DNA of 64,000 nucleotides, taken from the NCBI RefSeq assembly GCF_038618305.1, contig NZ_CP152017.1, positions 1,465,501 to 1,529,500 of the forward strand, read 5' to 3'. The position numbers and the translations under genes are program-made. Shown here piece by piece: positions 13,743 to 46,447 of this stretch. The notes under the pieces are model-generated. The model ran no database searches, was not told the origin of the DNA, and worked only from the letters and a program-made list of their open reading frames with translations. Origin of the DNA: Sporosarcina sp. FSL K6-2383. Lineage in GTDB: Bacteria; Bacillota; Bacilli; Bacillales_A; Planococcaceae. The first letter of the stretch is position 1. Every line of letters begins with the position of its first letter.

Positions 13743-13769
13743 TGTCTCCATATATTTAGAATGGCATTG

Positions 13770-14000
13770 ACAGAGATAGTAATTTTCAAATTTGTGCATA
13801 GCGAGTCGGGGATGGTGAGAGCCCGGTCAACAAATTGGAAATGAAGATCACTCCTGAGCCGGATTGCGGAAAGTATACACAATCCCGGAAACACCCCGTT
13901 ACGGTGTCTGAGTGGTAGCAAATACATTTGCTACAAGTAGGGTGGTAACGCGAGAATAATTCTTCGTCCCTTTTTAGGGGCGGGGGATTTTTTTTGTTTT
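13770..14000 (+). promoter_or_regulatory. Isoleucine T-box riboswitch of ileS
   Basis: A tRNA-sensing leader. The T-box core AGGGTGGTAACGCG lies at 13939-13952. The probable specifier codon ATC (Ile) is at 13847-13849, just before ACTCCTGAGC. The leader ends in a terminator: CGTCCC/GGGGCG with a long T run at about 13965-13995. Uncharged tRNA-Ile would stabilise the antiterminator and switch ileS on. Confidence 0.93.
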
Positions 14001-14013
14001 TAGGAATGAATAT

Positions 14014-14101
14014 AGCGAAGGCGCTTTAACGGGGGTAGCCGGAGCCGTAAGACTGACGGCGAAGCTGTCTGGCTTATGGCGGGAGGCATCCCCCAGCGCC
14101 A
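14014..14101. repeat. Structured dispersed element A, copy 1
   Basis: About 88 bp shared with 45539-45626. Nested stems: GGCGCT/AGCGCC (14020-14025 with 14095-14100), GGGGG/CCCCC (14031-14035 with 14090-14094) and GCCGTAAG/CTTATGGC (14044-14051 with 14073-14080). Bases differing between the copies mostly keep pairing. It lies between the T-box terminator and the ileS ribosome-binding site. Confidence 0.87.
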
Positions 14102-14160
14102 GAGCGGCTTCAATGGACTTTTTTATATCAATTACTCAAAATTAAAAGGAGGAATACAAA

Positions 14161-16923
14161 ATGGAATACAAAGATACATTACTAATGCCGAAAACAGACT
14201 TCCCAATGCGTGGAGGTTTACCAACGAACGAGCCGAAAATGCAAGAGAAATGGGAACAGATGGACATCTACAAATTAGTACAAGAACGGACAGCAGGTCG
14301 CCCGTACTTTATCCTTCATGATGGACCTCCCTACGCAAACGGCGATCTTCATATGGGCCACGCAATGAACAAAGTACTCAAAGATATGATCGTCCGTCAT
14401 AAATCAATGACAGGCTTCCACGCACCATACGTCCCAGGTTGGGATACACACGGACTGCCGATTGAACAGGCACTCGTGAACAAAGGTGTAAAAAGAAAAG
14501 AAATGTCACTAGCTGAATTCCGTAAAATGTGTGAGGACTATGCGCTTGGCCAGATTGATAACCAACGCAGTCAATTTAAACGCATCGGTGTCCGTGGAGA
14601 TTGGGATAATCCATATATTACATTAAAACCTGCTTTTGAAGCACGTCAAATTAAAGTATTTGGCGATATGGCGAAAAAAGGCTATATCTATAAAGGCTTG
14701 AAGCCAGTTTACTGGTCACCTTCAAGTGAATCTGCACTTGCAGAAGCAGAAATTGAATATCAAGATAAAAAATCAGCATCTATCTATGTTGGTTTCCCTG
14801 TCAAAGACGGTTTAGGTGTCATTGATGCAGATGTTCAATTCTTAATCTGGACAACGACTCCGTGGACGATTCCTGCCAACCTTGGGATTTCCGTTCATCC
14901 GGAATTCACGTACGTTATTGTGAAAGTAGGAGAAGAAAAGTTCTTAATTGCCAAAGACTTGCTTACATTCGTAGCAACAGAAATTGGCTGGGAAGATTAT
15001 GCGGTTGAACGTGAGTTGAAAGGTTCTGAGTTGGATCGCGTTGTTGCGAAACATCCATTGTATGATCGCGATTCACTCGTTATGTTAGGTGATCATGTTA
15101 CAGCAGAAGCGGGTACTGGATGTGTCCACACGGCACCTGGTCACGGGGAAGATGACTTCTACATCTCGAAAGCTTACGGCATTGATGCATTATCGCCAAT
15201 TGATGATCGTGGAGTGATGACAGACGAGGCACCTGGCTTTGCAGGACTATTTTATGAAGATGCGAATAAAGCAATTACAGAAGCGCTCGACAAAGTAGGC
15301 GCACTGAAGAAGTTATCATTCATCACACACTCGTATCCTCATGATTGGCGCACGAAAAAACCGGTTATTTACCGAGCGACGGCACAGTGGTTTGCTTCCA
15401 TCGAATCATTCCGTACAGAACTGCTAGATGCGATCAACAATACGAAATTCACGCCGGCATGGGGTGAAACACGATTGTACAACATGGTACGTGATCGCGG
15501 CGACTGGTGTATTTCACGTCAACGTGTGTGGGGAGTTCCAATTCCTGTGTTCTACGCAGAAAATGGCGAGCCAATCATTACAGATGAAACGATTGATCAT
15601 GTTGCAGAGCTATTCCGTGAGCATGGTTCAAATATTTGGTTTGAACGTGAAGCAAAAGATCTTCTACCAGAAGGATTCACACACGAAGGAAGTCCAAACG
15701 GGGAGTTTACAAAAGAAACGGACATTATGGACGTTTGGTTTGACTCAGGCACAACGCATCAAGGTGTGCTCGTCGAAAGAGATGACCTTGTTTACCCAGC
15801 TGATTTGTATTTAGAAGGATCTGACCAATACCGTGGATGGTTCAACTCATCCCTAACGACAAGTGTTGCGATTAATGGTCATGCACCTTACAAAGGCTTG
15901 CTAAGCCATGGTTTCACACTTGATAAAGACGGACGTAAAATGAGTAAATCGATTGGGAACGTTATCGTTCCGGCAAAAGTGATGAACCAGCTTGGAGCTG
16001 ACATTCTTCGTCTATGGGTTTCTTCTGTTGATTACACGGCGGATGTGCGGGTTTCGGATTCGAACTTCAAGCAAGTTTCTGAAGTGTATCGGAAAATCCG
16101 TAACACACTGCGCTTCTTACATGGTAATACGTCTGACTTCAATCCTGCGACAGATGCGGTCGCATTCGCAGATATGCGTCCTGTTGACCAATTTGTCTAT
16201 GTGAAATTACAGGATTTGATCAAAGAAGTACGCGCGGCATATGACAACTATGAATTTGCAACAGTTTACCATGCAGTGAATAACTTCTGTACGGGCGAAT
16301 TGAGCTCGTTCTACTTGGATATTGCCAAAGACGTTGTCTATATCGAAGGTGTGGACCATCCACATCGTCGTGCGATGCAAACAGTCATGTACGATACATT
16401 GATGGCAATGTTGAAATTGTTGACACCAATCGTGCCACATACAACAGATGAAATGTGGGCTTATATCGAGCATAAGGATGAAGTGAGTATCCAGCTAACA
16501 GATATGCCAGAAGCACAGGATCTTGGAGAACAAGCGCAAGCATTGCGTGAACGTTTTGCAACACTAATGCTTGTTCGCGATGATGTCTTGAAAGCACTTG
16601 AGGAAGCACGTAATAGCAAAGTTATCGGTAAATCACTTGAAGCAAAAGTGACAGTTGCGGTTCCTGAAAACTTACAAGGTGTCTTTGCAGCAGAGGATAT
16701 TGACTTTGCGCAATTCTTCATCGTATCGAAGTTTGCGGAAGGCGATGCTGCGAATATGCCTGAAGGAACATTGAAGCTAGACACAGTAAGCGTTCTTGTG
16801 GAACCAGCAGATGGTGAGAAATGTGAGCGTTGCTGGACAATTTCTGAAACGGTTGGTCAGGATGATACGCATGCAACATTATGTGTACGTTGTGCAGATG
16901 TTGTGAAAAAGCATTACGCGTAA
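14161..16923 (+). CDS. ileS: Isoleucyl-tRNA synthetase
   Basis: Class I aminoacyl-tRNA synthetase that charges tRNA-Ile, 920 residues. The HIGH motif lies in [11 protein letters not shown] (about residues 57-67). The editing domain is in the CP1 insertion (about 190-390, with [11 protein letters not shown]). The KMSKS motif is in [10 protein letters not shown] (about 592-601). A C-terminal zinc site is made by CERC and CVRC (about 887-910). AAAAGGAGGAATAC precedes the ATG. Expression is under the T-box just upstream. Confidence 0.98.
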
Positions 16924-18515: not shown

Positions 18516-18545
18516 GAACAAAGAAATTGAATAGCGATACCTTTA

Positions 18546-18668
18546 ACATCAGTCCAGAGAGGCTGGGAAGGTTGCACGGAAGTACAACAGAACTGCTGCG
18601 CGCAGTTTCTTTGTACAGTTTTTCTGCACATATACCCTCCCGCCGTCTAAGGCAGGAGGTTTTTTTAT
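18546..18668 (+). promoter_or_regulatory. PyrR-dependent attenuator 1 (before pyrR)
   Basis: The PyrR-binding anti-antiterminator ATCAGTCCAGAGAGGCTGG is at 18548-18566. A terminator CCTCCCGCC/GGCAGGAGG (18636-18644 with 18651-18659, one mismatch) with a T run follows. With UMP bound, PyrR should favour termination and repress the operon. Confidence 0.92.
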
Positions 18669-33439: not shown

Positions 33440-33731
33440 TAACTGGCGATGAAGAGAAGAGTAATTGAGGCTAATTATTTTCAGAGAGCTCCGTTTGCTG
33501 TGAAGGAGTAATAATAACCTCAATGAAAAAAGACTTGGAGCTTCGTATGGAACTAAGTAACAAATCTTAGTCATCATGCGACGGGTTCTCCCGTTATAGA
33601 GATAGGGTATAATCGAACGTTGACGTACCCGAAGAGATTGGTATGGCAACATATCAATAAACTGAGGTGGTACCACGAAGTTCACAACTCTCGTCCTCAA
33701 GATAGATAATCTTGGGGGTGGGAGTTTTTTG
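33440..33731 (+). promoter_or_regulatory. Lysine T-box riboswitch
   Basis: T-box core AGGTGGTACCACG at 33665-33677. The probable specifier is AAG (Lys) at 33530-33532, placed before ACTTGGAGC as ATC is in the ileS leader; the overlapping AAA would also be Lys. The terminator is the stem from 33687 to 33725 (ACTC...CAAGAT with ATCTTG...GGGAGT) followed by six T. Confidence 0.9.
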
Positions 33732-45506: not shown

Positions 45507-45538
45507 GTATGCTAAACTACTGAATTTATTTATTATCC

Positions 45539-45626
45539 AGCGAAGGCGCCTTACTGGGGTAGCCGAAGTGATAAGACTGATGGTGGTTTTCCGTCAGGCT
45601 TATCGCGGGAGGCATCCCCAAGCGCC
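45539..45626. repeat. Structured dispersed element A, copy 2
   Basis: Second copy of 14014-14101. Stems: GGCGC/GCGCC (from 45545 with up to 45626), GGGG/CCCC (45556-45559 with 45616-45619), GTGATAAG/CTTATCGC (45568-45575 with 45599-45606) and CTGATGG/CCGTCAG inside. It fills most of the rsmB-prpC gap. Confidence 0.87.
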
Positions 45627-45688
45627 AAGCATTATTATTAGGATATCTATATAGTAGAGAACTCGAAACAACCAAGGGGGGATGGACG

Positions 45689-46447
45689 TTGCAATTCGAA
45701 ATCTTATCAGACGTAGGTAGGAAAAGAACCGTTAACGAAGATCGCGCAGCCGTGTACACATTGCCAAACGGCATCATTCTTGCAGTAATAGCGGATGGAA
45801 TGGGTGGTCATCAGGGCGGAGATTACGCCAGTTCAACAGCTATCCGACTAATTGGCGAGCAGTTTATGAAGCTGGATAGTACCAGCTTTGAAGAGGACCA
45901 ACATTGGATAGAATGGCTCCGTGAAGTCGTCAATCATGTTAATAGACTACTTTATAATCATGCCAGTGACAACGAAGACTTAAAAGGGATGGGAACAACA
46001 TTAGAGGCGGTACTTATTCGCGGGCGTAGCTGTCTTGTTTCACATACTGGAGATAGTCGTGTCTATGCAATTAACGACAATGGTATTTGTCAGGTCACAC
46101 GAGATCATTCCTATGTCAATGCTCTGCTAGATAGTGGAGAAATTACAGAGGCAGAGGCAGCTGTTCATCCCCAAAAAAATTGGATTATGAAAGCGATTGG
46201 CTCTGAAAAGACGATTGAGCCTGACCATTATTCAATTGAATTGGATGATAAAACGTATTTGCTTCTATGTACAGATGGTTTGAGTAATAAAGTCGGTCAA
46301 CAGCTTATGCGTGAAGTGGTCCTTTCGGATGCTACGCTACATGATAAAGCAAAAAAACTTGTAGATTTAGCAAATGAAATGGGCGGAGAGGATAATATAT
46401 CTGTCATTTTGGTTGATTCTACTAAATCGGAGGTGAATAATCTATGA
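45689..46447 (+). CDS. prpC: PP2C-type protein serine/threonine phosphatase PrpC
   Basis: Mn-dependent phosphatase that reverses PrkC phosphorylation, 252 residues. Metal-binding motifs are ADGMGGHQGGD, GDSRVYAI, TDGLSNKV and GGEDNISVIL. The start is TTG 45689 behind AGGGGGGATGG; the ATG at 45682 inside that site is out of place. It overlaps prkC by 4 bp, the standard phosphatase-kinase pair. Confidence 0.93.
   Translation: MQFEILSDVGRKRTVNEDRAAVYTLPNGIILAVIADGMGGHQGGDYASSTAIRLIGEQFMKLDSTSFEEDQHWIEWLREVVNHVNRLLYNHASDNEDLKGMGTTLEAVLIRGRSCLVSHTGDSRVYAINDNGICQVTRDHSYVNALLDSGEITEAEAAVHPQKNWIMKAIGSEKTIEPDHYSIELDDKTYLLLCTDGLSNKVGQQLMREVVLSDATLHDKAKKLVDLANEMGGEDNISVILVDSTKSEVNNL

Follow-up and report, generated by a model that had tools for sequence, protein, structure and literature searches.

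Element A, a structured repeat with two copies in the window, is probably a small, non-autonomous, MITE-like mobile DNA element of Planococcaceae, and the family is apparently undescribed so far. Its sequences are short, non-coding, dispersed and multi-copy, and terminal inverted repeats are present on both sides of nine Sporosarcina units that contain the structured core. Direct support comes from the dispersal of the element, its filled and empty sites, its decay by core deletion, its covariation, its residence in IS3, IS1182 and IS66 elements, and a probable TA duplication at one site. A record-level search of the literature brought up no recognised account of an element of this kind in these genera, and a term search of a 2024 review of prokaryotic MITEs found the words Planococc- and Sporosarcina to be absent.

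The window copies and the structure of the hairpin

The window is a stretch of 64,000 nucleotides from Sporosarcina sp. FSL K6-2383 (genome G000). It contains the two copies and the neighbouring features listed here.

13758..13974, + strand: T-box leader of ileS (Rfam RF00230, 129.4 bits)
13998..14136, + strand: whole unit of copy 1, approximate, with degenerate arms (left TTAGGAATGAATATA, right GGCTTCAATGG...TATATCAATTA); ends placed by flank comparison and by the unit ends of other copies
14015..14105, + strand: structured core of copy 1, between the T-box terminator and ileS; BLAST and covariance-model match in the own genome (G000:C1:1479515-1479605)
14161..16923, + strand: ileS coding sequence (open reading frame), downstream neighbour of copy 1
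45508..45654, + strand: whole unit of copy 2, approximate, flanked by TA dinucleotides; ends placed by orthologous-site comparison
45540..45631, + strand: structured core of copy 2, between rsmB-like and prpC-like genes (G000:C1:1511040-1511131)
45689..46447, + strand: PP2C phosphatase (prpC-like) gene (open reading frame), downstream neighbour of copy 2

Copy 1 lies directly downstream of the ileS T-box terminator and outside the T-box itself. The name ileS derives from the sequence-only reading and the T-box, not from a family search. We take the gene at 45689..46447 to be prpC-like from the operon order, and the rsmB-like name is likewise putative. Both downstream neighbours are conserved in the window's genus, where the first 246 amino acids of IleS and the prpC-like gene each have a match in 61/61 genomes. 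The window also contains a second T-box leader (33440-33701) and a PyrR binding site (18536-18668).

The sequence-only reading had claimed two related copies in the window. Both are present, as copies of one imperfect hairpin, and each core starts one base later than that reading had placed it (14015-14105 and 45540-45631). It had correctly read the middle stem, which is GCCGTAAG/CTTATGGC in copy 1 and GTGATAAG/CTTATCGC in copy 2; the changes consist of one C-G to G-C swap and two wobble exchanges, and all eight pairs remain possible. The GGGGG/CCCCC stem does not shorten between copies, as had been proposed. Instead, the G-C pair at its outer end is replaced by T-A (columns 17/82 of alignment A1), an exchange that counts as further covariation. 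The predicted folds of copy 1 (z -3.9) and copy 2 (z -4.3) each beat 200/200 dinucleotide shuffles.

The core of ~90 nt is one long imperfect hairpin composed of four helices (outer, G+C, short and middle) and a variable apex, with largely fixed internal loops between them. Covariation was counted on 49 copies from many species (alignment A3), hand-picked with truncated, antisense and near-identical matches excluded and aligned with MAFFT. On a structure drawn up by hand from these same sequences, 92.3% of A3 cells pair and double changes occur at 20 of the 27 pairs. The count of doubly changed cells is 177, compared with a mean of 52 in shuffles, and 0/500 shuffles reach the observed values. 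Slid control structures pair just 38-45% of cells.

Two further alignments (A4 and A5) were made by fitting copies to the model and thus lean towards its structure. In these, 126 distinct copies from the window's genus pair at 95.3% (387 doubly changed cells versus 116 in shuffles), and 30 further distinct copies (19 from genus g47 and 11 from loci L194-L197) pair at 92.5% (96 doubly changed cells versus 30). Further pair types are not unusual in the set of 30 (34 versus 32, a value reached by 123/500 shuffles). The original proposal of a structured, dispersed and covarying element was right, with support far stronger than two copies could give; additional copies, which had been named as a possible refutation, do not break the stem (49, 126 and 30 copies counted). 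A comparison with known RNA families, also suggested there, gave no Rfam 15 match at the element when the window was searched at gathering scores. At E<=1, an Rfam 15 match was likewise not found in five G009 loci, all of which contain an intact copy.

Distribution, units and insertion sites

We identified 22 BLAST matches in the own genome (one contig, 3.67 Mb), 14 of them near full length. The covariance model R1, built from these 14 copies (alignment A1), gives 23 matches in the same genome at E<=1, several of which are truncated or internally deleted. Across 101 relatives, R1 matches 41 genomes, all in the window's genus. The sequence-only reading had proposed a covariance-model search of Planococcaceae, and this search, run with a model built from A3 (R2), revealed a widespread element, with matches in 104/261 genomes and 7/19 genera. 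The matching genomes comprise 44 of the window's genus, 46/46 of g47 (Planococcus-type) and 14 in five other genera. An order-level search again gave 261 genomes, with 103 matching at a stricter limit. In the R1 and R2 surveys, 43 or 16 candidates were scored for each genome, so that the copy numbers are minimum values; ten genomes that were searched more fully hold 1 to 32 matches each.

Among the matches listed from a pattern scan are records titled Sporosarcina, Filibacter, Planococcus, Planomicrobium and Paenisporosarcina. One record among those listed, titled Arthrobacter beigongshangensis REN13, also carries the element (L477, a contig of 61089 bases). A plasmid or phage element was rejected, because one 113-base query from copy 1 has no match in plasmid and phage collections and the exact pattern has none in viral_contigs; diverged copies may escape both searches.

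Copies are found between many unrelated genes and within insertion sequences. Besides ORFs that lie over the element, the top 25 ORF clusters near copies contain only IS1182, IS3 and IS66 transposases and ordinary genes as recurrent members. A scan of 80 loci for a recurrent ORF family gave 11 clusters, all two-membered and either ordinary-looking or overlying the element. On the basis of these clusters, a recurrent neighbour gene was rejected. Some copies form tandem or alternating arrays with periods of ~144-283 bp (L043, L040, L047, L073, L074 and L422), including eight copies that all run in one direction at L043. Composite repeats with several hairpins were identified at 11 fetched places of G268 (L267-L277); these have common stretches of up to ~1300 bp, and their aligned pieces are ~71-96% alike.

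The Sporosarcina unit is ~150-180 bp long and consists of imperfect inverted ends (TATAwrTTGAA), two A+T-rich arms and the central core. A search by end pattern identified 10 units with TATAwrTTGAA-type ends, and nine of these have the core (150-159 bp, five in G268). In many copies these ends are more degenerate, and they differ between genera, Planococcus copies included; the description of TA sites and terminal inverted repeats is thus limited to Sporosarcina.

At one composite site, 10 comparisons of filled loci (G268, G027 and G041) with empty references (G041 loci L236 and L239, and G271 locus L196) delimit units of 145-158 bp. TA is common to both sides of the break in five of the 10 comparisons and a single base in one; the break lies elsewhere in four, all of them made against the more distant L196. 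These alignments make a TA duplication at this Sporosarcina insertion site probable, and the filled copies probably descend from one insertion, so that the duplication would rest on one event. Empty sites other than this one are too diverged for duplications to be read. The unit and its TA site would fit a MITE-like element that inserts at TA. No transposase or autonomous element with matching ends was found among the loci fetched.

Orthologous loci include filled, empty and decayed sites. At the rsmB-prpC site, G000, G057 and G014 carry the element and 9 of the 13 genomes compared are empty; G027 has a degenerate insertion of its own almost at this point. All three filled copies are intact, and decay is thus not universal. 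At the ileS site, the copy is intact in G000, core-deleted and without a match in G014, and represented in G057 by an interrupted copy of another subfamily (24 bits); G014 and G057 are the two closest relatives. A scan of 30 ileS loci found an intact copy in one, that of the own genome. The role in the ileS leader that the sequence-only reading had implied does not hold up against these observations, on which a regulatory RNA of the T-box or ileS leader was rejected.

Other sites vary in the same manner. At what we take to be a his-operon site, the copy is intact in G009, G002 and G041, interrupted in G268 and absent from the empty site of G006. At a presumed comEA-comEB-like site, G009 has an intact copy, and those of G002, G041, G268 and G031 have a deleted or disrupted core. 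Decay was also observed at the L247 site, and compared with G009 one G041 copy has lost its core, with a 7-base overlap where the sequence breaks. Element A moves or has moved, and the decay of orthologous copies is an argument that the host can do without them.

Insertion sequences, strand bias and alternative explanations

Three insertion sequence families carry the hairpin. Three copies of IS1182 in G014, 99.6-100% identical over ~1650 bases, contain the element in the stretch from the left end to the transposase, and an 8-bp duplication was read by eye at each. The element is carried by 6/30 fetched IS1182 loci (two in G014, two in G002, and one each in G058 and G031); related IS1182 copies (L372, L374, L377 and L378) are without it. 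IS66 elements have a hairpin at each end, in inverted orientation, in G014 (two elements) and G027 (one), and 8-bp duplications were read by eye at the two in G014. L243 looks like an IS66 miniature that retains both hairpins. In an IS3-family element found at two G000 loci and one locus each of G034 and G057, the hairpin lies upstream of the first gene, and the G057 locus is at the same place as one of those in G000.

The + strand of the hairpin runs outward in the four positions read (IS3 5' end, IS1182 5' end, and IS66 5' and 3' ends), and the IS-borne copies read sit outside transposase ORFs. IS3, IS1182 and IS66 have unrelated transposases and ends, yet they carry the same hairpin, which in IS66 and IS3 is accompanied by its own arms. 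Occurrence only with IS ends does not describe the element, as many copies lie away from any IS, for example between housekeeping genes.

Two side observations concern these insertion sequences. G000 and G057 have in common a 3-kb stretch with an IS3 element, at 99.5% identity (L010 and L283), and the IleS and PrpC fragments of these genomes are 95% identical; a recent transfer of the IS3-bearing stretch between them is possible. A second, unrelated G+C-rich dispersed repeat is found upstream of other IS1182 transposases (L367, L368, L369 and L371), and a sequence similar to it interrupts one hairpin copy in G268 (L331).

With identical copies collapsed and subfamily 1 chosen by its apex motif, the + strand of 126 Sporosarcina copies has 129 G.T versus 51 A.C cells. 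The subfamily-1-like set (65 versus 2) carries most of this bias, and the other Sporosarcina copies show 64 versus 49. Planococcus copies have 20 G.T versus 11 A.C cells (7 versus 1 as column events), and in 11 copies of L194-L197 the bias is reversed (3 versus 14). Fold energy favours the + strand in 104/126 Sporosarcina and 17/18 Planococcus copies; the G.T/A.C count is the cleaner strand test because the energy comparison includes fixed G.A internal loops. These data suggest a fold that is specific to the + strand.

Orientation relative to tandem genes was assessed for 123 copies, of which 118 have a gene on both sides by a longest-ORF rule and 38 were excluded at more than 400 bases from a gene. 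When orthologous copies (e.g. L228 and L248) are counted separately, Sporosarcina subfamily 1 is co-directional with its neighbours in 20 cases versus 1, and other Sporosarcina copies, IS-borne ones included, in 11 versus 14. The Planococcus-clade set (label P, with 16 g47, 4 g46 and 3 g39 loci) is co-directional in 0 versus 8, that is, antisense to its neighbours. Transcription-linked mutation could explain part of the subfamily 1 bias. The Planococcus bias, if real, is kept despite opposite-running neighbours, which would favour a role for the folded strand in the element's own propagation.

The 20-to-1 orientation of subfamily 1, its large excess of G.U over A.C and the strong covariation are what might be expected of a regulatory RNA, cis-acting or small, that the host retains, for instance in the leaders of operons or in 3' UTRs. 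We consider such an RNA most improbable given the orientation counts of the other Sporosarcina and Planococcus-clade copies, the decay or absence of orthologous copies, and the lack of a common neighbour function among the gene clusters examined. It is distinctly unlikely that the hairpin is an original part of the IS66, IS1182 and IS3 ends, an outward subterminal structure that insulates or regulates the transposase, with solo copies as decayed ends or IS-derived miniatures. The outward + strand at all four IS positions, the IS66-like miniature L243, and the IS1182-like TTTTTCAGTGGCC in which some composites end are consistent with this origin. The occurrence of one hairpin, with its own arms in IS66 and IS3, in three ISs with unrelated transposases and ends argues against it, as do its absence from most fetched IS1182 loci, related copies among them, and the solo units that were found by their own ends without IS ends.

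A quite improbable alternative is a single-strand element of the REP kind whose movement depends on a RAYT/Y1 transposase. It draws on the possibly strand-specific fold, the palindromic clusters, a GTAG motif at the base of an inner helix and the Y1 genes (~200 aa) that many of the genomes contain. Against it, R1 has 0 matches in 22 Y1 loci, and R2 over 39 Y1 loci (10 of them tested before) gives one weak 22-bit match, beside an IS200-type gene. Genomes without a Y1 match hold 21-42 element matches (G031, G184, G196 and G206), and the two RAYT loci that were read (L114 and L118) are flanked by palindromes of their own, of the CAGGTACCTGTGC and GGGGACCTGGTACCGT types. To our knowledge, a TA duplication is not expected of Y1 enzymes. 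Movement by RAYT was rejected on the missing linkage in the Y1 loci tested and the different palindromes at the two RAYT loci.

The reading that we prefer is that of a MITE-like element. It has entered intergenic regions as well as the space immediately within insertion-sequence ends, where it can hitchhike, and its core can fold into a long hairpin, probably on the + strand. A transposase acting in trans may recognise the ends. By analogy with RUP, TA targeting suggests that this would be an IS630/Tc1-mariner-type DDE enzyme. The folded strand, as single-stranded DNA or RNA, may be needed for propagation, and the structure appears to be kept by selection for spreading, not for a host function at each site. 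Several points count against the MITE reading: the loci fetched yielded no transposase with matching ends, the TA duplication probably stems from one insertion and four of the 10 comparisons place the break elsewhere, the ends vary among genera, and the strand bias is weak or reversed outside subfamily 1. In addition, tandem arrays with periods of ~144-283 bp are not typical of cut-and-paste MITEs, and a double-strand DDE mechanism would not explain a strand bias.

A further explanation draws on three features that an IS630/Tc1-mariner-type mechanism alone does not explain: the possible strand asymmetry, the tandem arrays and the presence of one hairpin in three IS families. One folded nucleic acid could serve several unrelated mobile elements as a common module. 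Such a hairpin, recognised in trans in the form of single-stranded DNA or of outward-transcribed antisense RNA, would let solo copies spread and would have been adopted repeatedly at IS ends, twice per IS66. We judge this unlikely, and its odds are lowered by a strand bias that is weak or reversed outside subfamily 1.

Relation to known repeat families

As a MITE-like element, element A would add to Gram-positive genomes a large mobile-repeat family with a core conserved well beyond its ends. MITEs are usually recognised by their termini, and element A differs by this conserved core. Its possible strand asymmetry makes it testable whether a folded DNA or RNA strand is part of element movement, and its presence in three unrelated IS families shows how larger elements can carry small ones. 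For annotation, the family accounts for many structured sequences between genes that might otherwise be taken for riboswitches or leader RNAs.

REP and REPIN sequences are palindromic and clustered, and one of their strands may be the folded one. Element A is likewise palindromic and clustered, with one strand possibly folded; it differs in having no RAYT link in the loci tested, a larger core and a probable TA duplication at one site.

By description, element A comes closest to RUP, Correia/NEMIS, ERIC and bcr1-type elements. The bcr1-bcr3 repeats of the Bacillus cereus group are described as high-copy, intergenic and MITE-like, and often part of UTRs (PMC3446304). Element A resembles them in these first three features, a likeness of description, and is set apart, again by description, by the TTTAT motif to which bcr mobility has been linked (PMC6542083). 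Correia/NEMIS and ERIC elements are described as ~100-200 bp long with TA at their ends, and their transcripts form long stem-loops that can affect mRNA (PMC2229807). Element A is similar in size class, in TA at the ends and in its long stem-loop, as far as these descriptions go; it differs in its hosts and in having conserved internal loops and lineage-specific ends, which are not among the features described there.

RUP (repeat unit of pneumococcus) is described as a 107-bp intergenic element with short inverted ends that resemble those of IS630-Spn1 and with insertion at TA (PMC2229807). It occurs in more than six IS families, where its insertions are said to inactivate transposase genes, and the review reports no structure or function signature for it beyond the ends (PMC2229807). 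Compared by description, element A is like RUP in being small and intergenic, in its short inverted ends, in its probable insertion at TA and in having entered several IS families. Unlike RUP as described there, element A has IS-borne copies that, where read, lie outside transposase ORFs, and it has a core that covaries strongly and spans genera.
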